From Branchiostoma floridae (lineage: Eukaryota > Chordata > Leptocardii > Amphioxiformes > Branchiostomatidae), in the NCBI RefSeq assembly GCF_000003815.2, contig NC_049985.1, positions 9,938,637 through 10,002,636 on the forward strand: a stretch of 64,000 bases of DNA. Reading direction: 5' to 3'. The first letter of the stretch is position 1. Every line of letters starts with the position of its first letter. Shown here one piece after another: positions 26,643-57,596 of the stretch. The translations under genes and the position numbers were made by a program. The notes beneath the pieces were generated by a model. The model did not search any database. It worked only from the letters and a program-made list of their open reading frames with translations, and was not told where the DNA came from.

Positions 26643-26807
26643 TCACGATGTAGCCTGCGTGTTACACTCGTATTCCTCTTTGGCAGGGACGGGAGTTCTT
26701 CTCCTCTGAGGAAGCCGGAATCTGGCCAGGGGGTCGGCGTCTCCGAACAGCTTCTGCTTCAGACTCTTGAACCTTCCAAGGAAAGCCTCTGGCATTGTCT
26801 GGGGTTT
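26643..26807 (-). CDS. Glutamate receptor last exon, cytoplasmic tail
   Basis: 55 codons including the stop, opened by a good acceptor (ctcttttcag) in phase 0 after the M4 exon. It encodes a basic tail with LPQRRRTPVPAKEEYECN and ends in QATS. The last residues do not fit the class I PDZ-binding pattern (S/T-x-hydrophobic). Confidence 0.85.
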   Translation of the reverse strand, partial: KPQTMPEAFLGRFKSLKQKLFGDADPLARFRLPQRRRTPVPAKEEYECNTQATS

Positions 26808-29800
26808 CTGAAAAGAGTAGAAGGGAAATATGTCAACCACGGACGCAAACAATGGAGAATAACTTGATCTAAAGCAAGAAAAACAGAAGGAAATCGTAAT
26901 CTAACGCCTCTGTAAAATACTTTTGTACAGTTCTTTTTTATTCATCATTGTGGACGTAAACTACAGACGAAATACATCGTAGCCTGACAAATCGCGCTCC
27001 TAGCGGCCGGCCCTACAGTTGCCGCCACCTAGAAGATGGGGGTCATTAACCTCAGTCAGCGAGAGATTGTATAAACACAGGCTAAAATACTTCCTAACCT
27101 ATAAGTTATTTTTCAATGACTCCCCTCCCCCTAATATTCAAGTATAGCCGGCCAAAGAGAGTCAGACGGGCTCCATAGCATACACATTCCTAGGACGACT
27201 TCACTTCTCTGCCAGCTTTTAAAAATATCTTATGCCACCGTAGGATCTGCTTGGAGATCACCCTCCCCTCCTGACCTTTGCACTTTTCTTGTCCACGTCG
27301 CCCACACAGACGAGGATCCACTCCAGCGTCAGCACCACCAGGCTGATGGCCATGGCGCCGTACACCAGCACGAACACGCCCAGCATGTGGTCCAGCCCGA
27401 TCACTATCGTACTCAGCTTCGCGTCCTCTCGGGCGCACTCCGAACCGCCAGTCCTGGGAGATAGAGGGGAGGATAGAATGCATGAATGAGTGAGTGAGTG
27501 AATGAATGTATGTATGAATGAGTGAGTGAATGAGTGAACAAATGTGTACAAGTGGATATGTAAATGGGTGAATGAATTAATGGAAGAATGAATGAAAATA
27601 TAAATGAATGGATGGATGGATGGATGGAGGAATGGATAAATAAATAGATGAATGGTTGTATGGATGGATGAATGAAAGAATACATACATAAATGGATGAA
27701 TGAATGAATGAGTAGATAAATGAATTGATGTATGGATGAATCAATGAAAGAATAGATCAATTGGTTAGCTATATGAGGACCTCATATGGCTACATATAAC
27801 GTTACAATGGTTGTATGTATCTAACATGTAATGGAAGGCAATTCAGCACTTCCATAATAGAAAATGTTGTTTTGAGAGTTTTGATGTAAAAAGCAAACTG
27901 GGATTTACCACTTGTTGAAAAGCTCTTCCAGTTTTCCCGACTCGCGTGCCCAAAGTATCTTTTCCGTGAACTCTTTCGTGTAGGGGGAGTTCTTCTGCAG
28001 GGCAAAACCGTACCCCGTCTTGGAAAACAGTCTGCCGACTGTCTTCAAGTCGCATGGTGGCGTTTTTGTCTGGAGAGGGAGGTAAGTGAGACGTTATATC
28101 ATGGGATCGCTTATGCATGGTTTATGCAAGGAGGTTAACCTCCTTGGTTTATGCATGATCAAGATCAATGTTATCTATCTGCAATTACGTACGATTAAGT
28201 TTTCGTGCCATTTGTTGTTTTGTAAACAAAAGTAGTAGAAGAGGTATTGATGGATTTTCATGGTTTTTGGTCCGTGCGTTGTCTTAAGTTAGCCTCCTTA
28301 GCAGTCTCTCAGGACCTTTTTTTGCTCATAATACACTTTTGCTGGCCATTTCTTTTTGTACTGGGTCGCTGATTGCCGGCCTCCGCTGGTGTATTAGCCT
28401 CCGCAGGGCCAATAGATCAGCGGAGGTCGACAATCAGCGAGCCAGTACAAGAAGAAATGGCCAGCAAAAGTGTATTATGAGCCCAAAAAAGGCCCCCGAG
28501 AGCCTGCTATGGAGGCTAGCCTTAAGTCCAGATTAAGAAATGAAGCCTCCCAAGATACAAGTTTCCCTAGCACTTACCACATAGTCAAGTATCCCACTGT
28601 CCCAGACGAAGGCGTAGTGTCCCCTGCGCGCACGCGCTATCCCCTCCTCTGACGTAGCTACCATGACGTCATGTGTTGACATGTAACGCGCCATCTTCTG
28701 AAAGGTCTCTATGGTGGACTGTAGGAAGAAGCTGTGAGGACCCGAAGACAGAACAGTTCCATAGGCGATCTCCGTCTGAAGACAAAGACAAGAAAAGGTA
28801 TACGTACTTGATGAGTAAAAAATTGGCCAATATAAAAACATACAGTTTCAAGGAGTAACTCTAGTCAGATATAAGCTTTCCTCCTCAACTGATTCCCCAA
28901 TTTTAAAACACAGGGATCTAAATGCTAAATGTTGTCGGGGCGATAATTTTTCGCCGATAACCTGCCTGGCTATCAAACGGGAAAAAAATCGTAGGCCGTA
29001 AACTCGTCTTTACTTTTTTTAGCCACTTTTCATTATGTTCTCCTTCTTGATTTCTTCTTTAACTTCTGTGATCTTCGTGCTAACGACAACCAAGAGAATC
29101 TGACCTGTTTGGCCAGGTCCTCCACACTGCCGATGGTCTCCTGCAGCCTGCCGATGGTGAGGTGTGCGGCCAGGTTAGCCGTGTAGGTGGCGATCAGGAT
29201 CAGGATCACCAGCCACCACACACCTGCCGTAAACCGGCCTGGGGCGGAGGACAAAACGTCGTAAAGGGACTGTCACTGTTTTGTCAACAAGTTTCTACCG
29301 AATTTGTTTAGATTTCGGCCGAAGTGATACGTCAAACACGGTTTAACAATGTTCCTTGGTATTTTTGACATCATATTTTGATTATACAGATTCATTTCAT
29401 ATTGCAACGTAGGGTAGGGTAGGGTTTTGCTAGGATCGGTCGGGTAACCGGGAAAACATTTCCCTGTGCCTAAGGGCCATGTATGATACAAGTTAACAGC
29501 ATGCAACGTTTAATGTTGTGAGTACCTGCTGCAGACTTGGGGTACTCCTCCGGGCCCTGTTGGAACAGCGTGCAGAAAGAGTTCCAGATCCAGTCTCCTA
29601 ACGTGATCTTCGTCTGGTCATTCTCATCATCATCTGAATCATTACCATCGTCATCATCATCATCTTTCCCTGTCTTCTCATTCTGTTTCAAAGACGGCTC
29701 TCTGTGAACGTATAAATCAGATCATCAGGGATTTTCAATCATATCGGGATGAAAAATTCAAGCCTTCGATATACCTGAATGATTCAGGTCTTTCGTTCTA

Positions 29801-32800
29801 TCAACTCAAAAGTATGGCCGATACCAAGCCTCATGCAGCTGGTTAAATATGTTTTTGGGCGTGTTTGCAACCGACGTTAGGTGTAGCCGGCGTAGAGATG
29901 TTTGAACTTAACTCCTCCCCCCCATTTATGCATGTACACACAATAGACGTAAGGTATCATAACAAACAAATAAGATGGCTAGGCACGTTAGATACAGGTT
30001 CACACCGTCCTACACACATCACTCCATCTCCTTAAGCTGAAGAGTCTTGACCTGACTGACCTCTCGTGGTTGTCCTGTCCCGGCCGTGTGACGGCGACAG
30101 GTCGGCAGCTGTAGGGGCTGAGTTTGTTGACGATAGACAGGAAGACGCCCACAGCTACCGTGGTGATGGCGATCAGCAGCCACAACCTGCGGTCAGATGG
30201 AAGGAAAAGGCGAGGGCATCTTATTAGACTTTCTTATTATAACGCCATTGGAAAAGAGAACGAAATCAAGAGTGATTGGTACAACAAATAAGAAGTCATT
30301 GGACATAAAACATAGATCGCGTAAACATGGATACGAAAGAAGATTACATAAGCTTGCATAAGAGTAACATATTGCAGCACTGCATCAGCCTGGTTTTATA
30401 CAAATACTAGAAGCTTGTCATTATCTAGCCACGACTGTGTATACCAGTAGTTAGATTTGTATGTTGTTCTTAATGATGTGTTTATGTGTGCCTGAAGTAA
30501 AATGAAATAAAACAGAGATGTATAAGTTCCATACATCTTGTCGCCATTGTGTCTCAAGAGTCAAGACTGTTGTCTCCCCACTTCGGAATTAGGAAACGAT
30601 TTTACCTCTAAATGACTTCCGGCTGAAATGTAGCCAGGAAAGTGATTACTCAATGAGAAACACTACAAGTGTAAACCAGGAGACAATGTAAGGACTCGCC
30701 TTTTCTCCAGTGGTCCGAAGAAGTTGAAGAGTGAGATCTCCTTCCGCCCCACCTTACTCATGACGAAGGTGAGCCCCACGTCGATATAAGGCGTGGTGAA
30801 GTCAACAACCTCCTCCCGGTCTGCCCGTATGGTGATGGACGCTACCACCATGTCGGCTTTCTGAAAATACAGGTATTATCGTCACTTACATCTGTTTTAT
30901 ATTAGCAGCTACTTTAAAGGGATATATTGTAAAAGATAAAGTCACTGTAACGTTATATGGTCATTTTTTACAGTATGAGTTGAATGAGTGCTTATGACAC
31001 CAGTAACACCAAAATACAACATTGTTTTATTACATTCTAACGTGATAAGTATTATTCGATTAACATGGATGTTGGCACAAAATATACACTGTTCGGAAGT
31101 AAAGACGTGAAACAAAGCAAAAACGTCGCACAGATCCAAGCCACAGTCCTACGTCTGCTTTGAAATGTCGCCATGCTAACCTTGTAGGCCACGTCAGCGA
31201 CCACCCCGTTCCATTTCCCTGTGATCGGGTCCTTGGCGCCCCAGTTGTTGTCGGCCACGTGATACAGGTCATACCTGAACCCCATGCCCTGAGACATCCA
31301 GTCCAGAAGGTCCACGCAGAAACCTGCAGCCGAGACGGAGGACATAAACTTCCCGACACATTTTGTCGATTAGTGACGTTACAAATGCGATCTAACTTTG
31401 CAAATCTCAACTAATCTNNNNNNNNNNNNNNNNNNNNNNNNNNNNNNNNNNNNNNNNNNNNNNNNNNNNNNNNNNNNNNNNNNNNNNNNNNNNNNNNNNN
31501 NNNNNNNNNNNNNNNNNCGCAGACTCGTCGTCCGATCGAATCGCGCGTAATGTGAGGGGGGTATAAGCACAGCCTCCAAATGGAAGATGCGCTGCGCAAG
31601 AGATTGTACAAGTATATATGAACTCCTGAAGATGACGGTCCAATAATCTGGTCACATGATACCTCAGGCAAATCATCTATCTTATTTACTCCGCCAAACG
31701 AATCTAGTAGAGACTACAGAACGCTGGTTACCTGACCTTCAGTGTTCTGTTGCGCAGGTCCGTCCGGTAGTCCTCTGGGACCGGCTCCGCCATCCCCATG
31801 AACGTCACGTTCCGAGTCGGCATGCTCAAGCCGCGCGCCTCGTCCCACCTCCCAACCTGTATAGGGACGGTAAGGTCCATATTCGCCGGTACCATGCATG
31901 GCGATACTCACCCAAAATTATCACAAAGACGAAATCAAGTTTAATCACATCCTAAATTTGTTAGACACAAGAGGCACGGATATATGACTAGAAATTCAAA
32001 GGAATAGCAAGATAGAAGTGTAAGAGCGCTCTTCGACGGGTCTACGTCACTTATCATCTCTTTGTGAGGTACTATCCCCTCGCCTTAACTAGTGATCAGT
32101 CTATACGTTAGATACTGTCGCTACAGAAATGATTGACAGATGACGTACCGTCTGCCAGCCGTGTTTCCTCAGGTTGACGATGTCGAACAGCGGTTCCCGC
32201 GGGATCCTGCTGGACGTGAAGCGGAGCCGCTGGGAGATGCCGGGCTCGTCTACCTGAAGGAGAAGGCTCGGGATGGTTAGAAAATTGTCTTCATCCCCTC
32301 TCCCTACAGACATTTCCATGAACGACTATCTTGTTAGGATGGCCATGTATGTTTCTGTGAACACAGCAGCTATAAGGAGGATTTTGTGTTTACTACATAG
32401 CCTTCTTCATAATTTTTTGTATAAAATATCGAAATAAACAAATCAAGAGCAGATCAAACAGCATTTGAAGCACTGACTAGTGATCCACGGCGGTACTGCC
32501 ATCTTGGAGAGGTGGCGAGCGGGAGCCTCCAGAATCCATAGATGGTTACGCCCGTCGATAGCGACGAATTCAAAACAGGTTTCTCTAGCAAGAGCCTGTG
32601 ATTATGCCAATACGTGACTTTAGTTACCTTCTTGAGGTACTCCAGCATGGCGGGCCCGTTGCTCCACTTCCAGGAGACGTTCCCCTCGCAGAAGAGCGGC
32701 GTCTCGGGGCGGTAGAACCCGTCCTTGATGACTTGTTGAAAGGCGTAGGCGAAGGTGAGAATGGCGTCGGCGTACTTGGCAGCCCTGGCCTATAACAAGT

Positions 32801-35800
32801 TAGTGCATAAGATATACTTAACGTTTGAGCAAATGAATGAATTCTGCTTGTTTCGGATTATTTTGCCTCATTTCGCAAGACTTTCAAGATGTGCGTTTTG
32901 TTTGCCTAGATACGCTAGGTATAAGAAAGACCTCGCCATTTGAAACACGCACCAAACAGGTATAGGAACAGGTCAAATATACAGTCTGTTTGGAAAGCAC
33001 ACATGTAACTTAACATATCTCAAATGTCTCTTATCAAAATGTTTTGTGGCGTAATGATTCAGTTCCCCAATGCACGTCACCCAAAGATGAGCCACTTACC
33101 TCAATCTTCACCCTACCGGCCCCTGGGTACAAGATGGGATCCGCGGCCCGCCAGAACTGTCTGAATGACGTGTACAGGTCACCGCTGGTACCTACAGGTC
33201 TCGTCCCCAGGACACCCACCAGCTCGTCCGGTACCTCCCTACCAAAGTCCGACTAACGCAAGAGGAAATGTTAACGTTACTGTTTTACATTCAACTGAAA
33301 TGATGACGGGTTGAAGCCATAACTGGCACAAAACATACCTTGAGTATCATATTGAAACCAGTTGGACACACCATTGTATTCTGCTAGACTTGGATAACCT
33401 TTTTAAGCAGCATAGTACATTTACGATTCTTAATATCAAAATTAAACGTTTTTCATAGAAGATGAGAAAAAAGATTTGTTTTATTTTGAACAAAACGTAA
33501 GTGAGGAAGAATGACAGTATTTCCGGCCACGTGGATGTGCAGTTGGGGTAAAGAACACGTGATGTGATGTGCATGTTGCATGCAGACAATGAATTGTCCT
33601 CAAACATATCAGACCCACAAACCGCCACAAAAAGGGCTAATCCATCCAGACAGTAAGGTACAAAAGATCAGGGCATTTCACAGGCACCATTTACTCCTGT
33701 GATCGATAGCAGTCACGTGTCTATGTGGTCACGTGTCCAAGATGACTGGGTCAGCCATCCTGAAGAAGGTGGCAGGTTATGTTGCATATCAGTCTTCAAA
33801 CCTTAGTTTCATTGTTTGTGATGGAAACTTTGGTCGAACCAAAACAAATGAGGCAACCAACATAGATGGGGATTCCATGCTGTTTTTCTGCTCTGTCTAG
33901 TCTGGACTAGCCTTTAAGAAAATCATAAATGTGCTCAATAACAGGACGGTTGTGCGAGGTGAATCACGTGGCCAAGGCATGCCACATGCAGAGATGCACG
34001 TGATCAAAACCTACCTTCACCTTCGTCTCTCCAATGGACTATGACAGGGAAAGACATAACGACACAGCTATGAGAAAATGAGCAATTTGCGAACTATGGT
34101 GTCCTCTCTAGTGACCTGGGAATCAATACAACCCTCTTCAACTCATATTAAAAATGCACAAAGTAGCCTAATGGGCTGGATTACGGAGAAAGAAGATAGC
34201 TTATTTGACTACATATTAGATTATTGCTCTTCGCCTCGAGGTCTGCCCTGGAAATTAACTCCCATGTGATAAAGTCCCATCCTGTCCATCTAAACCAAGA
34301 GAACATACGATGAAAGCACTATCCCAACGCGGATGCATTACAGAGTACACCTACTATCAAATAGACCATACATCGATTTTTGTCCCATGAGTAAAAATGG
34401 CTCATCTTGATAACTCTATTAGGAGCGAGCCGACCACATTTGAGAGTAAAGTACCTGCACAGTCCATTATGACCGGTGCAGACTTAAAACAAAAATAGTA
34501 AGTGCCCTTAACGACCACTCATTAAAGATGCATCTAGATTCAGCTTACATATAATGTGCGAGTCCTGGAATGTTTGGTCGATTTTTATCTGTCTGTTTAC
34601 CTCCAATGAGATTTAGATTAACGATGTTAATTAATGTTAGTTCGCCTTTATCCGCGGGGTAACCTATATCCGTTGTTATATCAAACTACAATGGGGTACC
34701 CTATTGGTTGTTATATCAAACAGCTATATTTTCAAAATATTGCAGTTTGAAACCTCCGAACGTCGCCTTGATTTTGGAAAACAACGGATATACGTAACCA
34801 CGCGGATAAAGGTGAACTTACATTACTGACAGTAACATACAACCTGCTGACAAACATTCATAGACACTTTTGCCAACGATTCATACTCATAGATACTTTT
34901 GGATATGAGATTGCTTGCTTGTTTGTTTGTTGTTTGGGGGATGTCAGCATGAGGTCTTCAATTCCCACGAGTTGTTTTTTTCAATCAGTTAGAAAATGTT
35001 ACAGTTAGCGGTTAGGAGGGAGACCTGAGACTTACAATGCTGGCGATCCCGTCGGTGACGATCCAGACCCAGCCGCCTCCCGTCATGCCCATGGTGGAGG
35101 CCTTCCTCAGCACCTCCATGCCCAGCAACCCGCCACAGTTCAGCAGGATGATCCTCGCTCCTGGGAGGACGGATATCGCGGAGAATCGTTACAAACAACA
35201 CGAAACAACAACACGAAAGTTTATAAAATGAGTTTCTTCTTTATTCGTTGTGAATTTTTCGTCTATTTTGGCCAAGTTATATTATTTCGTCTATAAATTT
35301 TTCTACCAGCCCGTCTGACCAACTCGGACCTGAGCCAAACCATCCTTCTCATCATACCAGTCTCCGGGAACACCACCTTCCGCCTCACATCCTGTCATTC
35401 CACAAAACTACGGACACACTCACAAATACAAGCACATGAACCGAAAAATGCCTCTGTTTCACATTTTACGACCCTGGGAGCTGTGGAAATGGTTGAGATG
35501 TTCGGCACAACAGAAGAGCACACATGGTCTTTGTAATGGTCATTGGACTCTTGGATAACCCGGGCCCATATCTTCGTAGAAACAACAATAAAAGTTGTGG
35601 AGGTGGGAATGTAGAGATCTCGTGATATAGAGTGAAGTATTCTTTTACTGCTAATATGCTATTATTCATTTTGTACTTATCAATAAGTCGTCATTTTGTA
35701 ATTGTGAAATGAAAGTATCTCCGAAAATTAGTAAAGGGCATCTTCGAAATCCCCAGTGTCTTTCAAAATTCTTAGTGTGCAGTGTCTCTTAGATATTCAT

Positions 35801-38800: not shown

Positions 38801-40955
38801 GAGTCAGCGGAGATATGAAAACGGAGATATACATACAATCACTCACTCACTCACTCACTCACTCACTCACTCACTCACTCACTCACTCACTCACTCTCTC
38901 GCTCGCTCGCTCGTTCACAATCACTCACTCACTCACTCACTCCGTCATTCCCTCACTCACTCCGTCATTCCCTCACTCACTCACTCACTCACTCACTCAC
39001 TCACTCACTCACTCATTCACTCACTCACTCTCTCGCTCGCTCGCTCGTTCACAATCACTCACTCATTCACTAACTCACTCATTCACTCCGTCCGTCATTC
39101 CCTCACTCACTCACTCCGTCCGTCATTCCCTCACTCACTCACTAACTCTCCCCTCCCTGCAGCCTACCTGCCTGTTTGATGGCCTTAAGCTGCAGCAGCA
39201 CGTCTATCTGTGCGCGGCTCTCCCTGGGCTGGAACACAGTCACTCCCTCACTCCCTCAGTCACTCCCTCAGTCACTCCCCCACTCCCTCAGTCACTCACT
39301 CATTCCCTCACTCACCCCCTCCCTCTCCCCCTCCCTGCAGCGTACCTGCCTGTTTGATGGCCTTGAGCTGCAGCAGCACGTCTATCTGTGCGGGGTTCTC
39401 CCTGGGCTGGAACTGCTGCACGGTGCGGATGAGCCATCCCCGCTGACTGGCCAACGTCTTGAACTCCATCAGTCCGTGCGTACCTGGGGATATGGAAGTT
39501 GGAGGACTTTGAATGACTTGAAGTTCTCCTACTTCTTTTATAATGAATGAATGGACTGATCGATATGTCGAATGCAAGATATGGAGAGTTTATGCTTCAT
39601 TTGCCCTCCAGTTTTTGCCATATTCTCACATCTTTGCCACTATTACTCATTTATCGTTCGGCAGATAACTTTCTGCCAATTGGTATTGTCCAAGTTCCAC
39701 CCTGTGTTTAGCATACCTGAGCAAGGTGCCGTGCTAGATGAAAAGAGTTTAATGTAGGTGTGAAGTGAGCTTGCTTGGACCATACCATAGTCGTCCCGTG
39801 AGACCAGGATGCTCATCTGCTGCCAGCCGAACTCGTTAACCAGGTCCACCAGCACGCGGCTCTGCACGGTGTCGGGCGCGGACATGCGCAGCAGGTACGG
39901 GTACTTCTCGGAGTTGTCCAACATCGGGTCGGTGGCGATGGGCGCGATCTGAGGTATCGCGAGACCCGCCGAGACTAGCTGCGTGGTTTTGACCGAGCTG
40001 GAACTCCCGGGCCCGACGAACGTTGCAACACCTTTTTCAGCTTGATGGCAGACTGTTAAGAAAACAAAAATCCTTTATGGAGGGAGAAAGCATACAAGAC
40101 AAACCTGTACACATCAGGGCATATCAACCTGTTCTCAGCAGAGACGGGGGGCATTACAGACTTCCGGGCACCTTGGAGCCTTTCCTGGACCCATTACGTT
40201 GAATAATTACTGGTACCACTCATTGAGACCCAGTGATTCGATCAACAGGCGAAAACGCTATTCTAACTCAGATTTCTCTATGATTTTCCATTTTCCAAAG
40301 GTTTTATGTACAGCTCGATACATGACTCAGTGCTCTTGGTTAACCATCTCCCATTGGTATACTTGTCCAGAACAAATGGAGGAACAAACCTTTACATAAC
40401 CAATACAATACCTATAACATTAACAGTTAAATGTGCGGAAATATAGCGTTATACACCCATGAGGTACAATTTGCGCTCATTCGAACCAATCTGATCTAGA
40501 AACATCAATAATCCCTCATCTAGGAAACAGTAGAGTTCGATCTGGTTTGCTCATATGAAGTATTATTTAACGTATAGCTGTATGATTAATTGTACTTGGG
40601 TATCACATTCACCTGCGTCACATAGCTGTTACAGTCGGAAGGTTATCACACCTCGTGCATTCACACATGTAGATAGCGTCAATGGTCATGGGGAAAGGTA
40701 TGCTGATTACAGTGGAACGTTATTTTTAACCATAATGTTGTGTTTTATTATGAGATGTTAGGACATAGTTATGGAATAATGAAGTGATAGAATTTCTACT
40801 TTTAACTCGGAAAATGTGAAGGTTGTTTTAGTACATGTCCGCCTGTGCACGTGCGAATTTGTGTGTGTGTGTGGAAGTGGGTAGGTGATGGTTTGGCTGG
40901 CCGGTGCTACTTTGTATGTATTTGCCAAAGAGTGTGTGTGTATGTGTGTCTGCGT

Positions 40956-40986
<31 letters not shown>

Positions 40987-43900
40987 CATGATGTGAGTGG
41001 TTGTGTTTAATCACACCAAAAAGCATTATTTTATTCTATGATTGATAACAAATTAAGTCAATGATCGAGGAAAATATGCTCTAGTTCCCATGCAGTCATC
41101 AAGTCAGATCTTGCTTGTGATTTTGCGATGATTTGTGGTCAATTTCAGATGTAGGGCAGAGTCCCAAATATGGTGCCTTTCGTGAAAATGCCATCAAGTA
41201 TGGATCGGCCGAGGCGCAGAGTTTCATCTTCCCTTTATCAAATTTTATAGATTAGAAAACAGCCATGACTAATGGCTCATCGTATAGCAATTTGTCAGCC
41301 CCAGATAATTCTCCAATTTGAGTATGGAGATGAGGCTTTTGTAGATGGAAATAAACTCCAATACTCCGATAGGAAACGATTTGTAATAGAACGCAGTATA
41401 GAACGGAAGATCAGAACTTTTTTCTGTTTGACTGGCTGTCCTGTTTTTGTGCCTACTCTTCAACCAATGGGATGAAGTAGAAGAAGATTTGGAAGTGTTG
41501 GTTTTCGTAATAACGGGATGATCGGAAAAACATCTCTTTCTCTTCCTCGAGATTACATGACTGTCAATCACAATTAGTACACATGTAGTTCAACCAAGGA
41601 GGTTAAAATTTTAACATGCCCCGATGTGATAAACGATCCACAAAGACAGTTAACATTACATTATCCTGTTGTTTTCTGCTGTTGACGGTTTGATTTGCTG
41701 TACTCTCCTACCTTACCTGTGAGTACGCTGTCCAGGTTAGCTAACATCACCACGGTTCCCTCCACGATCCGGATCCTGGTCGCAGGTAAGATGTCGGTCC
41801 TGTTGTTCACGAACTCCACCGCTAGGCGGACAGCCGTTCGGTCCGTGGGGCTCTCCCCGTCGTACAATGCACCTAGGGGATGGTATTAATAGAGAGTTTA
41901 TTTGCAAGTTCTTGGCCGAGGTCCAATCGCAACATGGGATATACAGAATATATACTAAACATACAGAAAATAAAAGACTTTGGTATAGACACGGATCTTC
42001 TTAGATTTTTTTCACACGAGGGATTTGGAAAATCTATCAAATTTTCCCACTAATCAAGATAATAACTAAATCGGTGAAATAAACATATGGTGATAAAAAG
42101 CATTGGTTTTTAGATCCAACCACGTCAATGGAAACTTTTCCAACTTGAAAGTGTCTTTGCAAGGGTCGCCAAGGTTAACCTTGGACACATCCTAAACCGT
42201 CAAGTTCAAGATCATATCGATACATAGCTGCAGTCACACGCGCTGCAATAATCTCATTTATTGTACAGTATTGCTCTTTACTGTCTTAGAGCTTTCATCT
42301 TTACTGTGAGAGAGCTAGTACGAATAACGCATGTCCGCTGGTTAAAATCATGGCAAGCCACGTGCGCGAGCCCGGAACGGAAGCCTGAGTCATACGTCAA
42401 GCCATTACCCGAAGGAGATAGGAAGTGTAGATATATTTCTAGAGGAGTAAGATTTGACAATGAGGAAAACGTCTGAATGGTGGCAAGAATCATGGAGCCA
42501 TTAAAAGTGCACTTAAGAAAATCTAGGTCACATCGTTCACAAACGGCTTCCAGATGATGAGGTTTTAGCAGGAAGTTAAAATGGAGTGACTCCGTAATTC
42601 TTTGTCTTTCTAAACAAACTTCGCCCATTAGAAGCCTAAGGCGCCGCCGGCTGTATTGAACAGATCACTATCAATGTGTTTTATCCCCACATTGAACTGA
42701 AGGGCCCCGTATATGTGTCAATGTCTGCACCTCCATTAGTGCTGCGCTTTGCCTTTTAAGGGGATCCGGCATCTTCGCGTCTCTGTGGGTGTTGCATCAG
42801 CAGAACAGGCAGTAAAACCTCACGTGGAGGACCATTCGTCAAATTACTGTCACAGCACGTGACGCGCGCTGATCAGCTGGGACACAGATAGCGGCAAAGT
42901 GTAATGCATGGTTATTGAATAACGTTATTTTACGAGAACAAGCCGTCTATGGCCCACCGGTGAACCGAGATTACGATCGCTCGGTCAACGAACCTGTTGG
43001 GCCGGCTGACGATGACTACAACGGCAATCCTACGAGGGGCGTTCAATGCGTTCTAGGTCTCAGTCAGACATAACGGACTCAGCTCAAATATTGGGGCATA
43101 GTCATGATCTATGAAGCCCTCAATCAACATCTAGCACAACTCAGCCAATTGTGATCATTACTTTGCAGGCGACACCCGTTTGAAAATCAGTAACGGTAGA
43201 TGAGAGAGATAACTGAGATGAGGTGTGTGGACAACAAGAATTTCCTTGCTCTTCTTATTAAGTCATTTACTCACTTTTTTTCCAGTTAAGATACGAAGGG
43301 ATTCCTCATCAAACATTGTGACTGCGTCTCGCATATTGTTAACTCCGTAGACTACAGTATTCCTGTCTAAATTTAGAATGTTGTCCCTGCTTGGGGGTTA
43401 CGCAAAGGCTGAAGTGGCAATGATTGTTTTTGTGAAAAATGCATTAGAGGGCTAACGAGAATTTCACCCACCATAATGGTGGGATGAAATGATTTCTCCA
43501 TTAAGTGATATTGTGTGGACCGCTAACGGCAGTTGTGACATTGGGGAGAGGTAAGGTCACCAGAAAGCAGGGCCGTGGGCATCATTTCATATTCATTAAA
43601 ACATCCATACTTCAGAGCCGATATTGCTTTTTATATGCAGACCGAGTCTCCCTGGTGACGAGTAAATTTCTTATCATCTTCATTTTTTGGCAAGGCTTCC
43701 CAACTTGAGAAATGCTATCAGTGTTTATTGCTAGTCTTATGAGTTCGTAACTGATTGTTTTTGGCCTTCGCACAACCTTAGTGCACTCCCACTTTTAGCG
43801 ATGTGTTCTTTAACGTACCCTCGGTGTGGCTGTCCTTACAGAGGTACAGTACACGACGTCCCATCCAAATGACTCAATACCTGGAACACTGACGGCCACG

Positions 43901-49900: not shown

Positions 49901-52900
49901 AAACCAGGTGTGGTCAGACACATCCCACTTCGATTTAACACCTGTTATGCCTGGTTTACTTGGCGGAATTCCAGCGACCCGACAAAGGGAGGAGATCAGA
50001 CCAGGTCTCCAGAGACTCAGTTCGCAGACGATATTTAATAACATAAAGCTATCGGCCACCTGGCCGGCTTCCATAAGAGCGTATTAATGCTAACGTTAAC
50101 TTTACTATTCCTGTATATCTGTCAGTCATGTCCTGTATGTAAAGCGACTGCACGGCCTACTACAATTATATGTAAACTACACTTTTAGTTTAGACCCACT
50201 ATTTGACTTCTTATGATCTGTTCTACGTACGAACAAACATTACTGTTATGCTAAGTTATCTTTATCTTTACTCTCAGTGTTAGTTACTACTAATACTTCT
50301 TAAATTTTTGTCTATCTATGAAGGTTGATTTATTCTAATGGACCTTTGTTCTCATTTTTATCATATGTTGAAATGTTATGCAATTAGGCCAAATGTCTAA
50401 CCTGGCAAAACAAATAGAACTGAAACTGAAGCTCTTGTTTAACGGTTCCTTGCTCATTACCTCACATTACTCGCATGACTAACGCAGCTGATGTTGCATA
50501 AATTATTCAAACTCCACAAGCTAAAAGCAATAAAAACTCCATCGAAGAATCGAGCCTTTCGGAAAATCGATACGACTGACCCCATTTTGTAGCGACTTTT
50601 CCTGTCCGATTCGCCTATTCTTCTCGTAAAAAGAAAAAGAAAACCTCACGCGAAAGTCCCTTCATGTTCATGGTCGACACTCGACCCGTTAAATCCAGCG
50701 GAGTTCTCAGTGTGTATGAAGGGGCAAGGAATCATGGATTCAAGTCGTTAAGTTGAGCTTTTGGCATTTAGATCAGTGGTACGAAATAAACCAAAACAAT
50801 GTCAGTGGCATTGAGAGTAGCTTACAGGAAACGCTAACCGACGTTTGTAGCCCTTCCTCTTCACGGGGAATGCACATCTTTAAAAGCGAGTACAGTCAAA
50901 CCTGTACAAGTGGCTACCTTTACATCAGGACCACTTGATCGTTGTGGCTACACTTTGGCGGCCCCTTGATAATATTTCCTAATGATAAAAGCAATACGAA
51001 TCCTGTCTATAGTGGTCACCTGTCCACATAGACCAGATTTTATGGGCTCCATGATAGCGATCTTCGTGGGCAGTCAAAATACCGCAGTAATGCTTCGGTC
51101 GCAATCGCGCCGGTGCCCGTACGGGATTTGTCAAATGTGTCCTTATGGACAGCCTGATACTGCGGGGTAACTCTTGGTGTTCTCACGTGTAGGCCAGATA
51201 TTCTACTTCTCGCCGGGTCCCGGGTTGATTTAAATCTCAAGTTAAAAAAATACGGGACCCGGCTGGACCCGAATATAGCCCGGTAGCCGCACTCGCAGGG
51301 GTCGTGTCACGCCCTTAAGTTCTCTAAACAACCCGTAAACTGCCCGGCAGGGCCCCTTTTTCCAATTGTGACCTAAGCATTACAAATTGTAACTTGTTTC
51401 TTCAGCTCCATGAAATCAACTTTGGCTCTGAATCAGCTCTATACATCAGCACATAAAACGTATCTTGTTTTGCGTGATTAACGTTCAGGACCTTTTCATC
51501 AAAGTTTGATTCTTAATATACGTATTCATAAAGTCTACTGTACATCCGGTGATTCATAAAAGTCTACTGTACATCCGATGACCAAATGAAGAATCGATGC
51601 TAGAAGTCACAAAAATTAGGTAGGAGAGAAGGGAAAACCACAAAGTCTTCCTCTTATCATCATTTCATCTTTAATTATTCTACACATCATTCACTAATTG
51701 CCTGGACTGGACCAGAATTGACCGTTTTTGTCCTTCCAGCTTCCTGGAAGTCTTTCTCGAACGACGGGAATCTCATTAGTATCGGTTCACACAGTCACGG
51801 CGTGTCTTTTAACTGGGTTACAACTAAAAAACAGTCGAGAAATAAGTTTCAACTCTGTTTCTAATCCTGTAAAGCATCGCTCTCCGAATCACCCCTTAGT
51901 AACATCGGCCATCTATTGGTATACATGACAAAGTAGCTTTATCTTAGATAGTTTTTCAAGCTTAAAATGAAGTTAAAGGCTAGTCTTTGTAGCAGCGTGT
52001 TTTTATCAGTGTAACCGCAATTGTCGTGTCTTCACTCAGCTTTGTAAGTAGTGAGTTGTGTATGGCCAGTCGACCATTGCCTGTCTAAACCTGTCGTGAA
52101 CAAGGTCGTCTGTGGTCGGTGGTGGGTCGGTGAATTTGTCTAATAGTTTTATCTGAGTTTCGAAAAATAAAAGTCAGAATAGTCATGTACTGACTTGATA
52201 CAACCAGAAGAGGAGTGAGTTGAAGCTCGAATAGAACTGATTCTATCTTGTGTTGCACTATATCTCTCGCTACTGGGCAATTATACTGGGCACTTGTATT
52301 GATGGTGGGTGTCCTTCCCGGGAATGGGCCTGACCAGCCGAAAGGCTCAAGAAGCTAGAATTAGTCAGGCAGACTAGGATGGAGTCCGGACTACTTTCAA
52401 CTCAGTCCTAACCTTGGTTCTGGAGTGGTCGGAAGGTCGCAGGAAAGTCTTTAATGTGTGACAGGGTCTTAACATCATATGACATTTAGGTCCAAATGTG
52501 GTCATGACACAGAAATGAGACAATAATACCACAAATAGACTTAACGCCAATGAAGCCGTATTATGATGATCCAATTAACGCTGTCCAAGTTATTCAAAAT
52601 ATAGAGAACAATCTTGATAGACATGATAGAAGATATCCCCATTTTATCCCATTTCATGCGAGAGTTCTCTTTGTATATTCCTTTCTTGATTAGACTTGGA
52701 CGTCTTATTACGCTTTCGTCACCGAACAACAACAATTCAGAATAGTACCTGCCAGAAAATGCTTAATGTTATTGCTAGGTCCCATTTGTGTTCACGACAT
52801 AGTTCACCAAGCAGAAGTATGGAACCCACCGTATGAAAAACCTGTGTTAATCACCAGAAGTGCGATCTGTAATTTAGGTCACGCAGGGGCGGTTCTTATT

Positions 52901-55900
52901 GTGTCATGTAATTGGATGGAGATCACCTCTGATGGAAACCGTATATTCAATTATTTAAGAATCCACTTGATGACATGCCTGGGGACTTAATGGCGATGGG
53001 CTTAATCCGAGCTCTTAAGAGGGGTATAGATAATTGAACTTTGCAACATAAAACTGGTATATAATGACTTCAAAACGTAGAGGTGTTGGTCATATCACTT
53101 CAGTGCAAATAACAAGGTGTAGACGTTAACATGATTTCCTTTTACAAGATTTACTGAACCTTACTTAGTTCAGCTATGGATATTCAGTTATTGATTGGTA
53201 CTTGATCAATCGATAAAAGGTCAAATGCAGCTTACTATTTGTCAATTCTTTGTAAAATGTACAGTACACTACAGACCATGAAAGTTCTTCCACCTGTTCT
53301 ACCACCTGACGGAGAGGCTGTGCCCTCATCAATACCGGTAATTCTGACCATATGGTCCACCGTTACGTCACCGCCCGCCCCAGATATGTCAGTATTCCGA
53401 TGTCAGATAACGCCGCTATATTGAATACTTCCGCTGGAATCTACGTAATGAAACTCCGGGGCTGTTTGTGAGTGATTAAATCGTGCAGGAGGAGACAGTA
53501 TTGCTACTCCACCATATCGCTACTTTTTGTGTTATAGCGGAGAGCATTTGTGTAACAAGTGGTATATTGGTCTACCGGTGGGTGTGTACCCGCACCACAC
53601 TAGTCTGTATGACACAAACTCTGCTGTCCAGGACTGTAACTGGCCCCTCCGGCCGGATGTTGGGCGGCTGCTATAAGCGAGATTTAATCAGGCTAGTAAC
53701 ACACGTTGCTGAAAGGGGGTGGTCTCGGACCAGTTTACCTCATATTAACTCAACGGACTGGTCGTGACAGAGGCGACAGACGCTGTGAACAGTACATAAA
53801 GGGTCAGTATACCTGGGAAATTACCTAGCTCTTTTCGACAAGCACAATAAACAGTGGACCACGGCTCAGCGTCCCGTCTTGAGGACTGAGACCCTTATCA
53901 TTCGACTACTCATGCACGCTACATTGCCTACTTGCCGGCTTGGTTGCTGAAAAAAGAGCAGAATTTGGCCATGGTCTTTACGTGTTTGCAAACCTCTAAT
54001 TCTATGACCGGCTAACCCCTCTGAAAAGTTATTCACTCAATTTGACCAATGTCTACCAGTTTTTTTCCAGCGACCAAACAAATGGGCGTGGTTGAAGGAG
54101 ACTTCCAGTGTCTCAAGTGCCGCGGCAGGTTCAGTTATTTTCCAGCTCTAGTAACCACGCAATGAGTTGTGTTTTCAATCAATCTGCATGTTATAAGATA
54201 ACGGAAGGCAATAAGTCAACTAGAGATACATATCCCAACAAGTAATATCACCAGATAATAACAAGCGGTCTTGTTTTGACGTATTGTACCATTATGAGCA
54301 GAGTCTATGACTAAGACATGATTTATTGATCCAGCAGGTTTATAAGAGGTCAATATGTTATTTATGTTTCCCCCGATAGGGGAACATATTGTATTCGCTG
54401 GTGTGTTCTTCTTCTTCTGTCAGAAACCAATCAGTGCTTAGAACTGCTATGAACCAATCAGAGCTTAGAACTGCATCAGCATATTAGCTGTATGAATATG
54501 AACAGCCACAGGTTTGCGATAGCCAAACCTAGCTGTATTGGTAACTTTTTTTTACTCTCACATAATACTACAGAGCGAGCCGCATACATACTGGTGAGCC
54601 CAATGGTATAGTATTGTGTGCGAGTGTGTGTTTGTTTGCAAAAGGCTACGCGAAAAAAATTCTGCATTTTCTCTAAAATGTTGCCTTTCTAGTTTCCCGT
54701 CACTTTTCCATCAGAGAAAATGTTGAGTATAAATGCTAGCATCAGTTCTGACCGTGTTGTAAATAAAGAAGGATGGTGCACTTCGGTGCGCTTTCAAAAC
54801 GTTTGGAAATCATTTCCGTTGGCGGTTGGATATTACTTTGGCGGTTGTCTGTAAACATCGATTTTCTAGATGCCTTACATATTTGTGACTTCATGAAGTA
54901 ATGATATCCTTGTTTCCTGAACTATAGTTGACGCCAACGTTTTCACAATTAGTAGTGCGTTTCGCAATTAGGTTTCTATGATTGACTGATGTCATACATG
55001 TAGGCACAATAATGATATTAGGAACAGGCTTAGTACGAGGTTAACCAGGAGACAACGCTGGAGGAGGGAATAGAGGGCGGTTTAATTAGTTGCACAGGGA
55101 GGATAACTCTTACCTGCACGCGAAAGAAAATCGGTAGCGACAAAACATAACGACACAATTACAAATCACAACTACTTTCGTATCTACAAGTTAGTACAAA
55201 CTAAGTAATGACACCGATGTTTTCAAACACCTCTTTGGTCTTTGTTGTGGTAACTCCTTTCTAAAGTCCCAATAACAGTTTATCACGTCACCAGCTCCTT
55301 AAGATAATACTAACTTTCATTTGTCGCGCCTTTCTTGTCGGTATCACCTGTAAGCCTTAAGAACACCTTAATTGTCGAAACTTAAGCAGCAGGAACGACT
55401 ACCATTACAAAACAAAGACCAACAAAAGTCCTCAACAAAGGAGGATGACTACACGAGTCTCCACCGGGTGGCTGGAAGACGCTTGCTCCACTTTTCCAAC
55501 ACCTTAGATCCGCCATGCTTTTGTCTTTTGCTCCAGCCCTGTCTTTCGTATAATTAGTTTCCCCGAGGTGCTGGATGAAAAGATTTTGTTGGAGACGTGG
55601 TTTGGAAGACCAACGGACCGCTTGGGGAGAAATTTGACTTTTTATTTCAAATGTACTACTTTGAAACTAAATCAAATCAAATCTAACTCTTGGAAGTTGT
55701 AATGATATTTTGTTTTAGTCAGACAGTATGTACAAACCTGTGGGGAAACGTCTAGCAGATGTTTGAAACTTTTTCTGGCTGTCTTGTTTTTCTACGAAAC
55801 AACTTTCCCAATGATCCAGGCCCTTGTAGTTCTAATCTAGTCTAGATTCCAGGCTTAAGTGGCGGTCGATAGATATGGCGCCTCGCATTGTATCACCACA

Positions 55901-57596
55901 AGTATAGACGCATCCGCGTCTGTTAGCAGTTCACACAACACAATGCGAGACAACGGGTCGATACATACAGCAAATTGTCACCCTTTAACTCAACCCTTTG
56001 TCCGCGAACATGCGGGGATCATCCGGGTCTGACCTATGACATTTATCCTCGAGGCAAAACTAATCCGTTTCCATGGCAACAGATCCCCGCACACCTGTAT
56101 CAAAGCGAAACATGACTAAGGTTGCCAACTAGAATACATAAAAGGAACAAGACTGAGAAAATCCTCTTGTGTCATCGTTTTGATATTTGTTGTTTAAGGA
56201 GACAAATACACCGAGTACATCTGATATGAGGCCGATTAGACGGTCATAATGGTACAAAGAGAGTATAATTTTGGACACTTATTTTCTTGCTATCGCTTTA
56301 CATAACGTACATATAGGTATGTAAGATGCCCTAAAGGTCATTCTTCAATTGATACCTCGGACCCCCCGCTGTTACCAATACTAACTGCTGTAGACTTTAG
56401 TGTATAGATAATGTCTGGTGAATAAATGTAGACAACATAATACAGTACTACTAAGTGATTATAAACTTCAATGGGCCTATAAAACTGAGGGTTTTTTTAG
56501 CGTAAAATACTTATCAAGGCGCAATAAGTAAGATCGATAGACAGTCTGCAAGTAAGGCAGCATCTGAGACGTCTGCGAGCTCGACTTTCAAAATACTAGT
56601 CACAGCGTTACATTTGAAAGTCAAAGGAGAAAACATTGGACTAAGCGCAACGCTGCTAGCTCTTGATATCATGCTGAAGGTATTCCCCCGCAAAGCAAAC
56701 AAATTTACCTTCGCTATCCATTTGCTAATGCTGGTGGTATAGAAGGTGACAATATTTCTGAAAACCAACAACGTCGGTTCCCTTACTACTTTTACTGTCA
56801 TACTGACGCTCAACATGAACATTACCTTCTTACATCTTTACATAATACATGTGCTAAAAAATAGTCAATTGAAAAGGGAAACTGAAGAAAATACGTCAAC
56901 CGGTTGTATTTTGCGTTCGGCTTAGTTCTTTTCACAGTAGTCGCCACGCGGCCACTCTTAAGGCGATGTTTTTCTTGTCTTAAGTCACTGTTTACTTGGT
57001 CGTTGGAAAGCAACACGAATCGGCATTCAAAATGTTTAGATTTAATAAGAAATCAAGGAAACTGAATAGATAACATAAGAAAAAGGACGTGACAATGAGA
57101 TAAAAGGCTGGTGTGTCATAATTGAATGATACGTCTTATCAAATGAGACAAGAACAACCGAAAGAACATGTATTATTTAGGGAGGAGATATGGCGCTCTC
57201 CCATCCCACCAGTACGTACATAAACAAGGGCTTAGCCGTACAAACTAGTCCGCATACCTGCTTTCTATGAATAAAACACCAGAAAATTGTCACAAAACAC
57301 AGAAATACGGACACGTGGACGGAGAAGTCATCCAATACAATCTATATGTCTGCATACCACTACTATCATTCGCGATACTCGCAATACCAACCATATTACG
57401 CAAGAACCTGCCTCCGACGTACTAGCTATAGTATAAGAACAGATTGAAACTCACCGATTCGGACTTCTGAAGGCACAAGAACGGCAGAACTTCTCTCCTG
57501 CACCGAGGCGAACAGAAGGAAGAAGTTGAGGAGAGAGGTAAGAACGGAGCTGGTGACACGGGGCATGACAAGACCGGGGCTGGAGACGCGGGGCAT
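26643..57596 (-). CDS. Ionotropic glutamate receptor subunit, AMPA/kainate-like frame, 19 recognised exons
   Basis: Ligand-gated cation channel subunit of the plasma membrane. Exons in order: 57455-57596, 41717-41872, 39786-40052, 39346-39483, 35036-35160, 33100-33252, 32628-32789, 32149-32253, 31737-31856, 31518-31591 (runs into the N gap), 31181-31323, 30700-30860, 30061-30186, 29526-29701, 29105-29238, 28578-28775, 27909-28069, 27276-27453, 26643-26807. Phases agree at every junction that can be checked; about 960 residues are visible. Order: signal peptide, amino-terminal domain (VRIGALYDGESPTDRTAV to about residue 440), S1 (GFCVDLLDW; SITIRADREEVVDF with the ligand Arg), M1, pore loop (FCTLFQQGPEEYPKS), M3 (ATYTANLAAHLT), S2 (FVWDSGILDY), M4, short cytoplasmic tail. 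The S1-S2 core is nearest AMPA/kainate types, but the Trp-Asp in S2 is as in GluN1. The amphioxus Epsilon group is one candidate assignment, unproven. Confidence 0.95.
26980..27084. mobile_element. TAGCCTGA...TCAGCGAGAG repeat family, copy 1
   Basis: The segment starts TAGCCTGACAAATCGCGCTC and ends CAGGCTA in inverse. AATCGCGCTCCTAGC, GCCGGC and GAGAGATTGTATAAAC recur in opposite orientation at 60379-60458, and a decayed partial copy is at 53636-53697. There is no coding capacity. It lies in the last intron of the receptor gene. Confidence 0.6.
27211..27257. mobile_element. End fragment of the CCAAGCAGATC MITE family
   Basis: On the minus strand it reads CTCCAAGCAGATCCTACGG, then TGGCATAAGATA and AAAAGCTGGC, matching the left half of the element at 14421-14575. 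It lies about 18 bp from the donor of the M4 exon (27275). Confidence 0.65.
27276..28775 (-). CDS. Glutamate receptor S2 half of the ligand-binding domain and M4 (exons 28578-28775, 27909-28069, 27276-27453)
   Basis: The first exon opens TEIAYGTVLSSGPHSFF, where AMPA receptors have a Ser-Thr pair that contacts ligand; here the aligned positions are Gly-Pro. It then gives HYAFVWDSGILDYV, with Trp-Asp as in GluN1 instead of the AMPA Glu. The second exon has CDLKTVGRLFSKTGYGFALQ and the conserved lobe-2 cysteine. The third starts after a Cys that pairs in the family, then M4 (MLGVFVLVYGAMAISLVV). What is seen is sequence; the ligand effect is inferred. Confidence 0.9.
27483..27765. repeat. Imperfect GAAT/GATG microsatellite
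   Basis: About 280 bp of degenerate tetranucleotides (GAAT, GAGT, GATG variants) begin 30 bp upstream of the M4 exon, replacing the normal pyrimidine-rich intron end except for a short tract. The long reverse open frames rich in Ile, His and Ser here are translations of this repeat and not genes. Confidence 0.9.
28119..28155. mobile_element. Minimal transposon footprint: 17 bp fused inverted ends between 10 bp direct repeats
   Basis: AGGAGGTTAACCTCCTT (28129-28145) is a perfect palindrome with the preceding A. It is flanked on both sides by the exact 10-mer GGTTTATGCA (28119-28128 and 28146-28155), which looks like a target-site duplication. The arm motif AAGGAGGTTAA is seen elsewhere in the window. 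The element has no interior left. Confidence 0.65.
28291..28520. mobile_element. 230 bp palindromic MITE
   Basis: The two arms of about 95-100 bp are inverted copies: AGCCTCC...CTCATAATACACTTTTGC and TTTCTTTTTGTACTGG at the left, mirrored at the right. CTTAAGT occurs just outside both ends (28283-28289, 28521-28527), a possible 7 bp target duplication. One arm is also present at 15495-15578. It is inserted in the receptor intron between S2 exons. Confidence 0.8.
29105..30186 (-). CDS. Glutamate receptor pore region, M1-M3 (exons 30061-30186, 29526-29701, 29105-29238)
   Basis: M1 is LWLLIAITTVAVGVFLSIV, followed by KLSPYSC. The M1-M2 loop is long and acidic, with DDDDDD and DSDDDEND runs coded by GAT repeats. 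The pore loop is LGDWIWNSFCTLFQQGPEE: Gln at the Q/R site and Glu four residues on, which in AMPA-type channels goes with calcium permeability (family knowledge). M3 has ATYTANLAAHLT where the usual motif is SYTANLAAF, so two of the most conserved gate positions differ (Ser to Thr, Phe to His). Confidence 0.92.
30187..30699 (-). other. GC-AG intron in the glutamate receptor gene
   Basis: The S1 exon ends GAGAAAAG and the intron opens GCGAGT; the acceptor is ccgcag. Only this junction keeps phase 2 and joins S1 (PLEKR) to M1 (LWLL) without frameshift. The nearest GT, three codons on, gives the wrong phase. AAG followed by GCRAGT is the usual context of the minor GC donor class. Confidence 0.75.
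30700..31323 (-). CDS. Glutamate receptor S1 half of the ligand-binding domain (exons 31181-31323, 30700-30860)
   Basis: The first exon encodes GFCVDLLDWMSQGMGF and NNWGAKDPITGKWNGVV, the second KADMVVASITIRADREEV and VDFTTPYIDVGLTF. The Arg of DREEV is the invariant alpha-carboxylate ligand residue of the family. The usual Pro before it (APLT) is Ser here (ASIT), the Thr is kept, and the aromatic at the AMPA Tyr450 position is Trp. S1 continues upstream into the N gap. Confidence 0.9.
31418..31517. other. Assembly gap of 100 N
   Basis: Exactly 100 N, the usual placeholder for a gap of unknown size. It cuts an exon of the glutamate receptor gene, so its true length and content are not known. 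Confidence 0.99.
31518..31591 (-). CDS. Glutamate receptor exon broken by the gap (start of S1)
   Basis: A good acceptor (tcttgcgcag) opens at 31591 in phase 0, matching the preceding exon, which ends RNRTLK. The frame reads RIFHLEAVLIPPSHYARF and continues open to the N run. In this family this is the beta strand at the start of S1. The rest of the exon, which must finish in phase 1 before GFCVDLL, is inside the gap. Confidence 0.6.
33528..34002. promoter_or_regulatory. Cluster of six CACGTG E-boxes in a receptor intron
   Basis: CACGTG occurs at 33528, 33556, 33714, 33730, 33965 and 33997. By chance about one is expected per 4 kb. The hexamer is bound by bHLH and bHLH-ZIP factors such as MYC/MAX, USF, MITF and CLOCK. 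It could mark an intronic enhancer; nothing in the sequence proves activity. Confidence 0.35.
34632..34825. mobile_element. MITE with about 46 bp terminal inverted repeats
   Basis: The left end TAATGTTAGTTCGCCTTTATC and the right end, whose complement reads TAATGTAAGTTCACCTTTAT, continue to match through CCGCG..GTTAC/AACC and TATATCCGTTGTT. The interior of about 100 bp is non-coding. It lies in the intron between the receptor exons at 33252 and 35036. Confidence 0.8.
37585..37777. mobile_element. MITE with TCACATTCG...CGAATGTGA ends
   Basis: The left end TCACATTCGGAGTGCGGTCG with TCGTAAGAT is mirrored by ATCGCACGACGACCTACGTC then GAATGTGA, with several mismatches. Related CGCACGACGA words occur at 25618, 25785 and 48440, suggesting older fragments of the family. 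Confidence 0.6.
38838..39160. repeat. (CACT)n microsatellite with higher-order repeats
   Basis: Long CACT tracts alternate with CTCTCGCTCGCTCGCTCGTT and CCGTCATTCC blocks, so a longer unit has been copied at least twice. A related tract fills 39237-39330. The long open frame of repeating THSL here is the translation of the repeat, not a protein. Confidence 0.9.
39163..39236 (-). repeat. Partial duplicate of receptor exon 4 (3' end plus donor)
   Basis: The segment repeats 39341-39410 at about 90% identity: CTACCTGCCTGTTTGATGGC, CTGCAGCAGCACGTCTATCT and TCTCCCTGGGCTGGAAC are shared. It holds the last 20-odd codons of the exon and an intact GT donor context (minus strand CAGGCAGGTAGG), but no acceptor; its other edge is CACT repeat. 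It cannot be a complete exon. Confidence 0.85.
40857..40988. repeat. GT microsatellite, interrupted
   Basis: Three GT tracts separated by short unique sequence lie in the intron between receptor exons at 40052 and 41717. The rest of this 1.7 kb intron shows no gene. Confidence 0.85.
46430..47000. repeat. Diverged periodic motif GYCTCACAAATAAC
   Basis: Versions of CTCACAAATAAC occur at about 46431, 46563, 46712, 46804, 46942 and 46985, each followed by AT-rich sequence of varying length. This looks like a very old tandem repeat. No coding potential. Confidence 0.35.
48261..48384. mobile_element. Foldback MITE related to the CCAAGCAGATC family
   Basis: CCAGGCAGATCCACCGGTGG with CATGGCAT, GTTTAGCTGG and CAAGAAGTGTTCT at the left are mirrored at the right over about 58 bp with few mismatches; the loop is under 15 bp. 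CTGAGAT occurs on both outer flanks. Confidence 0.8.
51180..51375. mobile_element. Diverged GC-rich MITE with internal hairpin
   Basis: GCCGGGTCCCG at about 51213 is mirrored by CGGGACCCGGC at about 51253. The right end, GCCCGGCAGGGCCCC then TTTCCAATTGTGACC, resembles the GCCCGGCCGGGC...GGAAATGTGAC end of the elements at 18952 and 21914. It is a degraded relative; the left boundary is uncertain. Confidence 0.45.
54424..54476. repeat. Two tandem CCAAT-box repeats
   Basis: AACCAATCAGTGCTTAGAACTG is followed by a second copy with AACCAATCAGAGCTTAGAACTG. Each carries CCAATCA, the core bound by NF-Y. Whether this is promoter-like or part of a repeat cannot be decided from sequence. Confidence 0.5.
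57455..57596 (-). CDS. Glutamate receptor exon 1, signal peptide
   Basis: The exon reads MPRVSSPGLV, then MPRVTSSVLTSLLNFFLLFA and SVQERSSAVLVPSEVRIG, then a donor (gtgagt) in phase 1. Joining it to the exon at 41872 gives VRIGALYDGES, the standard start of the amino-terminal domain. Two in-frame starts exist, at 57596 and 57566, created by a 30 bp tandem duplication. The second gives a more usual signal peptide length. Short tandem repeats (CCCTCCCATACTGGT three times, 57726-57773) lie just upstream. Confidence 0.8.

Follow-up and report, generated by a model that had tools for sequence, protein, structure and literature searches.

A probable Epsilon-type ionotropic glutamate receptor gene of amphioxus with Delta-shared pocket residues and a likely preference for glycine

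Epsilon receptors were defined as a class of ionotropic glutamate receptors (iGluRs) in 2018, in a study that also described 24 iGluR genes, with all classes represented, in the amphioxus Branchiostoma lanceolatum (PMC6307864), and published trees recover the class as the sister of AKDF (PMC6307864, PMC12226733). The B. lanceolatum member GluE1, which carries S653 and W704 (residues are numbered throughout after GluA2, as in the cited papers), is opened by glycine and not by glutamate or aspartate (PMC6307864), and GluE1alphaA of Trichoplax adhaerens is gated by glycine, alanine and serine, again not by glutamate (PMC12226733). Mutagenesis of a placozoan Epsilon receptor showed that the exchanges S653 to G and I655 to T together make it glutamate-sensitive and that F732Y lowers its glycine sensitivity (EC50 from 0.11 to 0.30 mM; PMC12226733). 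Across iGluRs more generally, Ser653 with a non-polar residue at 655 is described as the mark of glycine receptors (PMC6307864), and the residues admitted at 655 by the rule are V, L, A, I and P, that is, Pro included (PMC12226733). Outside the Epsilon class, binding of glycine and D-serine is ascribed to GluN1, GluN3 and GluD2 (PMC6307864) and to both vertebrate deltas, GluD1 and GluD2 (PMC10861852). A literature search covering annelid Epsilon receptors from 2019 onward listed only PMC12226733.

The stretch of Branchiostoma floridae DNA analyzed here (64,000 nucleotides of contig NC_049985.1; hereafter the window) holds one copy of an iGluR gene, on the minus strand, which runs from a start codon at 57596 to a stop codon at 26643. 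Eighteen exons, all on the minus strand (E1-E9 and E11-E19), could be placed by their splice sites; joined in phase, they give two open stretches, one of 456 and one of 479 residues. The encoded protein matched three Pfam families far above chance (ANF_receptor, 7e-54, covering residues 59-410; Lig_chan, 8.5e-33; Lig_chan-Glu_bd, 1.5e-25), and the Pfam matches and exons taken together account for the parts of the family, i.e., the amino-terminal domain, the S1/S2 ligand domain, and M1-M4 with the pore loop. Exon E1 (57455-57596) bears the start codon and a signal-peptide-like stretch (LTSLLNFFLLFASV), and ends in ...SEVRI plus the first base of a Gly codon at a phase-1 GTGAGT donor. The amino-terminal domain starts in E2 (41717-41872; GALYDGESPTDR..., within the ANF_receptor match), continues through E3 (39786-40052), E4 (39346-39483), E5 (35036-35160), E6 (33100-33252) and E7 (32628-32789), and ends in E8 (32149-32253), and E9 (31737-31856; ending ...LRNRTLK) forms the linker leading to S1. 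S1 itself is read from E11 (31181-31323; FCVDLL...DNNWGAKD..., with Trp450 at 31243-31241) and E12 (30700-30860; KADMVVASITIRADREEVVDF, with Ser478, Thr480 and Arg485 within 30839-30816). M1 and the beginning of the M1-M2 loop come from E13 (30061-30186), the remainder of this acidic loop (KDDDDDDGNDSDDDENDQ) and the M2/pore segment QQGPE, with Q586 and E590, from E14 (29526-29701), and M3 from E15 (29105-29238). S2 follows in E16 (28578-28775; S653-G654-P655 at 28745-28737, and FVWDSGILDY with W704-D705 at 28610-28581) and ends in E17 (27909-28069; GYGFALQKNSPY..., with Tyr732), M4 lies in E18 (27276-27453), and E19 (26643-26807) encodes the intracellular C-terminus, whose last residues are ...NTQATS, and the stop codon. 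The gating motif in M3 reads TYTANLAAHLT (29238-29105), with His replacing the Phe of SYTANLAAF.

An assembly gap of exactly 100 N (31418-31517) lies between E9, which ends at 31737, and E11, which starts at 31323, and this interval is expected to hold the missing S1 exon, E10, of about 28-30 codons as judged from GluA2; no matching frame was seen in the flanks of the N run. Because the assembly lacks E10, which would carry the Glu402 position and loop 1, S1 is only partly readable. Among the 17 splice donors, 16 are GT, and the one after E12 is an apparent GC donor at 30700 (AG/GCGAGT), where the neighboring GT alternative breaks the frame. By inspection, one of five AG sites keeps the frame as acceptor of E14, the four others leading to stops. 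Exon E1 lies 15.6 kb upstream of E2; when the sequence was scanned for M-starting segments of 15 aa or more with a phase-1 G/GTRAG donor at their end, it was the sole match on the minus strand in the 22 kb upstream of E2. Applied to the whole window, the same scan gave ten segments (three minus, seven plus), of which only E1 combines a hydrophobic core with a [VILF]x[VILF] end, and this end, ...VRI(G), is of the type expected ahead of the first strand of the amino-terminal domain.

The possibility that the window holds a second receptor copy was discarded, because tblastn (E up to 0.1) matched only the gene's own exons and a partial tandem copy of E4. The latter belongs to a tandem duplication at 39073-39413 whose 178-base unit repeats the 3' end of E4, the second copy (39234-39166) being 91% identical over 23 residues; it was not taken as an exon because no acceptor keeping the phase of E3 was seen on inspection. 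Another repeat, within the intron that separates E16 from E17, is a foldback element (28283-28526), 85% identical to its reverse complement across about 248 bases, with a 43-base near-copy of one of its parts at 15500-15542. Across the window, 241 open frames with a length of 66 aa or more were found, 149 of which remained after removal of satellite and low-complexity frames and of the receptor interval, and 10 of the 149 were run against Pfam. On the plus strand, 1242-8328 holds parts of a WD40 protein whose end is of the Utp12 type (Pfam places WD40 at 3910-4296 and Utp12 at 8089-8328; the other pieces were judged by eye) and which looks like PWP2/UTP1. On the minus strand, 9647-10448 holds two Ribosomal_L22 pieces (Pfam E 1e-9 and 0.007, the second missing the family cut-off), presumably of mitochondrial ribosomal protein L22. 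Two kringle pieces follow on the plus strand at 14586-15951 (Pfam Kringle 6e-6, which misses the cut-off, and 2e-15), and beyond them cysteine-rich, EGF-like-looking pieces stand at 21696 and 24182, for which Pfam gave no match at 0.01. A satellite array with a 194-base unit in about 15 copies occupies 61154-64000 and reaches the end of the window, and Rfam and tRNA scans of the window returned no matches.

In overall frame the protein resembles AMPA receptors, its highest identity being to GluA2 (about 37%). With M1-S2 as query, the PDB gave GluA2 at 206.4 bits, the best non-AMPA chain being GluD2 at 192.9 bits (best 60 of 369 matches), and with S2 alone GluK2 (89.2), GluA2 (88.7) and GluD2 (85.4 bits) came close together (best 60 of 368). 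For the ligand domain, the best match among the best 60 of 386 was the GluA2 chain 2anj, in which position 450 is Trp. We take it to be an engineered mutant; a literature search for Y450W with GluR2 found none. The amino-terminal domain is diverged, with plant GLR3.4 (70.9 bits), GluK2 (69.0) and mGluR1 (66.5) as its best PDB matches and no GluA- or delta-named chain among the best 60 of 252. No Epsilon chain appeared among the best 60 of 369, 386 and 368 matches to the M1-S2, ligand-domain and S2 queries, respectively.

The pocket was compared by alignment with ten references (GluA1, GluA2, GluK2, GluK3, GluD1, GluD2, GluN1, GluN2A, GluN3A and plant GLR3.4), the GluN2A residues being PDB letters and those of GluN3A entered by hand. 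The window protein has W450, S478, T480, R485, S653, G654, P655, H656, W704, D705 and Y732. The original prediction, which described an AMPA-like frame with GluN1-like ligand residues, was accurate in its individual observations, namely Trp-Asp within the FVWDSGILDY of S2, Gly-Pro (G654-P655) in place of the AMPA Ser-Thr (S654-T655 in GluA2), an S1 that keeps the invariant Arg and Thr (R485, T480) and has Ser for the usual Pro at 478, and Trp at the AMPA Tyr450 position. Its comparison with GluN1 was, however, too narrow. GluN1 does match at S653 and W704-D705 and differs at 732 (Phe) and 478 (Pro), but among the ten references Trp-Asp is common to the window protein, GluN1 and GluD1/2 (GluD2 YAFVWDAAVLEYV, GluD1 YAFLWDVAVVEYA) and is hence no mark of GluN1, and six positions (T480, R485, S653, W704, D705 and Y732) are identical in the window protein and both GluD1 and GluD2. 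Nor is Ser478 a striking loss, given Ser at this position in GluN2A and, in the row entered by hand, GluN3A, and Ala in GluD1/GluD2. Since GluD1/GluD2 share Trp-Asp, the lack of Pro478, and S653, the pocket resembles that of Delta receptors no less than that of GluN1. Under the published rule the more telling residue is Ser653, which the original prediction did not mention and which, among the ten references, the window protein has in common with GluN1, GluN3A, GluD1 and GluD2; with S653, non-polar P655, R485 and acidic D705, the protein agrees with the residue rule for glycine-binding iGluRs. We therefore consider it likely, judging from sequence, that the pocket suits glycine, or a small amino acid like it, better than glutamate, and the earlier proposal that the subunit may bind glycine or some other small amino acid gains backing from these residue rules and from the functional data on amphioxus GluE1.

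Class marks outside the pocket bear on the choice among Epsilon, Phi and AKDF. The M1-M2 loop spans 59 residues in the window protein and 19-32 in all ten references over the same alignment columns (several reference rows are PDB constructs, in the case of GluA2 one whose loop has been shortened). According to PMC6307864, an insertion at this place in Epsilon is all that noticeably sets the new iGluR groups apart, so the long, acidic loop fits Epsilon. Gln586 with an acidic 590 is usual both in non-ctenophore Epsilon receptors and in most AKDF receptors (PMC6307864), and the window protein's Q586 and E590 thus do not separate these two groups. Gln586 does count against the Phi class, for which the survey of 2018 reports no subunit with this residue (PMC6307864). 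That the gene belongs to Phi, a class that does occur in cephalochordates (PMC6307864), consequently seems very unlikely to us, the more so as amphioxus Phi receptors are commonly altered at the amino-acid site (PMC6307864), whereas R485 and D705 are intact in the window protein. Of the two homes that the original prediction had named for the gene, an Epsilon and a Phi-like group, Epsilon is hence the better, while Phi is disfavored.

For phylogenetic placement, we used 11 rows, i.e., the window protein and the same ten references, which cover AMPA, kainate, Delta (GluD1 and GluD2), NMDA and plant receptors, so that any likeness to Epsilon is judged by published descriptions of that class. Five data sets were analyzed: all rows (11); without the plant row and GluN3A (9), which were dropped because of their long branches; and three 10-row sets from which the plant row was left out, namely the ligand domain only, the membrane part only, and without 12 pocket columns. 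The best tree of all five sets had a branch of AMPA, kainate and Delta with the window protein outside it, although this branch was weakly supported (bootstrap 52, 52, 56, 52 and 61; SH-aLRT 47, 7, 55, 32 and 57). This is the position where Epsilon belongs, because Epsilon is the sister of AKDF in published trees, even if such support proves nothing on its own. The AMPA-only, kainate-only, GluN1 and NMDA clades were tested on the 11-row set alone. There, a clade of the window protein with AMPA (GluA1/GluA2) was rejected (AU p 0.0007), as was one with kainate (GluK2/GluK3; AU p 0.0012); placement inside the canonical AMPA or kainate groups, the outcome that the original prediction had named as speaking against it, was thus checked and did not occur.

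These rejections also bear on whether the protein could be a receptor of AMPA or kainate type that has gone on using glutamate, with neutral changes in its pocket. The top identity and PDB score to GluA2, the best S2 scores with GluK2 and GluA2, the retained Tyr732, and a clade with AMPA plus kainate that was not rejected in any of the five sets (AU p 0.325, 0.203, 0.287, 0.344 and 0.214) all agree with such a reading. Nonetheless, AMPA plus kainate formed a starred branch without the window protein in four of the five sets (76/83 with the membrane part only), and neither the Gly653 nor the Thr655 typical of glutamate receptors is retained, which, together with the rejected groupings, makes this alternative highly improbable in our view. 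An NMDA-type, GluN1-like subunit, as the Trp-Asp and Ser653 shared with GluN1 might suggest, is barely credible: a clade with NMDA receptors was not rejected in the tree with the long plant row (AU p 0.196), but a clade with GluN1 was (AU p 0.0049), the four sets without the plant row split NMDA receptors from the rest, including the window protein, with support of 100/99, 100/99, 95/92 and 100/99, and at the pore site that is Asn in GluN1 and GluN2A the window protein carries Gln.

The most serious alternative is a receptor of the Delta class or of another early AKDF group, for instance the uncharacterized AKDF group II, with a Trp-Asp pocket that binds glycine/D-serine or, like invertebrate deltas, GABA; we regard it as possible, though somewhat doubtful. 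A window plus Delta clade was not rejected in any of the five sets (AU p 0.366, 0.414, 0.369, 0.379 and 0.321), the shared pocket residues and the GluD2 score for M1-S2 agree with it, and of the 35 columns that are invariant within the Delta pair and within the four AMPA/kainate rows but differ between them, the window protein agrees with Delta in 10, with AMPA/kainate in 10 and with neither in 15. AKDF group II is known to include cephalochordate proteins (PMC12226733), and deltas of starfish, acorn worm and acoel gave GABA currents while an oyster delta gave none; in the same study, pocket residues alone did not settle GABA versus D-serine (PMC10861852). Against this alternative, the best trees leave the window protein outside Delta, no delta chain is among the best 60 of 252 amino-terminal-domain matches, FCVDLL stands where GluD1/2 have FSIDVL, the M1-M2 loop of 59 residues compares with 24 in GluD1 and 20 in GluD2, and an S2 insertion of about 6 residues in GluD1/GluD2 is lacking, with the reservation that only these two deltas were compared and that the short loop and the S2 insertion may not define invertebrate deltas.

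Hence, we favor, with some reserve and from sequence comparison, the hypothesis that the gene encodes an Epsilon-type iGluR subunit, probably forming tetrameric cation channels that are non-selective and open in response to glycine. Counting against it are the low support of the tree branch, the AU values for the window plus Delta and window plus AMPA/kainate clades, and a pocket equal to that of GluD1/GluD2 at 480, 485, 653, 704, 705 and 732, and to these can be added that Tyr732 is a glutamate-type residue, that part of S1 is missing, and that ctenophore Epsilon receptors have other pocket residues (PMC12226733). Glycine gating is nevertheless the best inference because of the S653/655 rule, the placozoan S653/I655 mutants and the amphioxus GluE1 data.

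In the iGluR family, R485, T480 and D705 hold the backbone of the amino-acid ligand. R485 and the acidic residue at 705 are described as the amino-acid backbone site of iGluRs in PMC6307864 as well. In the Epsilon-type subunit that we propose, the glycine carboxylate would be bound by R485/T480 and its amine by D705, while Ser653, Pro655 and Trp704 would occupy the space of the glutamate side chain and render it hydrophobic, and Trp450 would form a lid over the ligand; glutamate would be expected to be a poor agonist, and Tyr732 may reduce glycine sensitivity by analogy with the placozoan F732Y. Closure of the lobes would then pull on M3 and open the pore, which, given Q586 and the acidic 590, would be expected to pass Ca2+ and show inward rectification via polyamine block.

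If the subunit is glycine-gated, it would provide a natural test of the iGluR residue rule, combining S653 and W704 with Pro655 and the glutamate-type Tyr732. The pocket shared with Delta further raises the question of whether this pocket is ancestral to the non-NMDA receptors. A variant in which the gene represents an early non-NMDA branch that kept the Delta pocket (S653, W704, D705 and Y732) and gained Trp450 and Pro655, and in which glycine or GABA is excitatory, seems unlikely to us; if true, the "Delta" pocket would be older than the Delta class or would have arisen twice. In any case, since Epsilon was defined in 2018 and one amphioxus member has been shown to be glycine-gated, the gene described here is a further example of a known receptor kind, and it possibly equals an already listed amphioxus iGluR gene.

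Among the known receptors, amphioxus GluE1 agrees with the window protein, as far as it is described in PMC6307864, in S653, W704, the M1-M2 insertion of the Epsilon group, Gln586 and an acidic residue at 590, which is Asp in GluE1 and Glu in the window protein (PMC6307864); its Q/R/N site is, however, given as Phe in PMC12226733, which disagrees with the Gln586 of PMC6307864. The two also differ in the signal peptide, as the window gene has the signal-like exon E1, whereas none is predicted for GluE1 or GluE7, which reach the membrane only with a borrowed one (PMC6307864); a distant signal exon that gene prediction missed could explain the latter. GluE1alphaA of T. adhaerens shares S653, a hydrophobic 655 and D705 with the window protein but has Ile rather than Pro at 655, Phe rather than Tyr at 732, and Ser rather than Gln at the Q/R/N site (PMC12226733). 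GluD1/GluD2 are alike in T480, R485, S653, W704, D705, Y732, the absence of Pro478 and a QQGxE pore, and differ in having Val instead of Pro at 655, Tyr instead of Trp at 450, and, as noted above, the short M1-M2 loop and the S2 insertion. GluN1 is similar in S653 and W704-D705, unlike the window protein in Phe732, an Asn at the Q/R/N site and Pro478. Finally, GluA2 is alike in overall frame and in its QQG pore and has the highest identity, and it departs from the window protein in Gly653, Thr655, Leu704-Glu705 and Tyr450.
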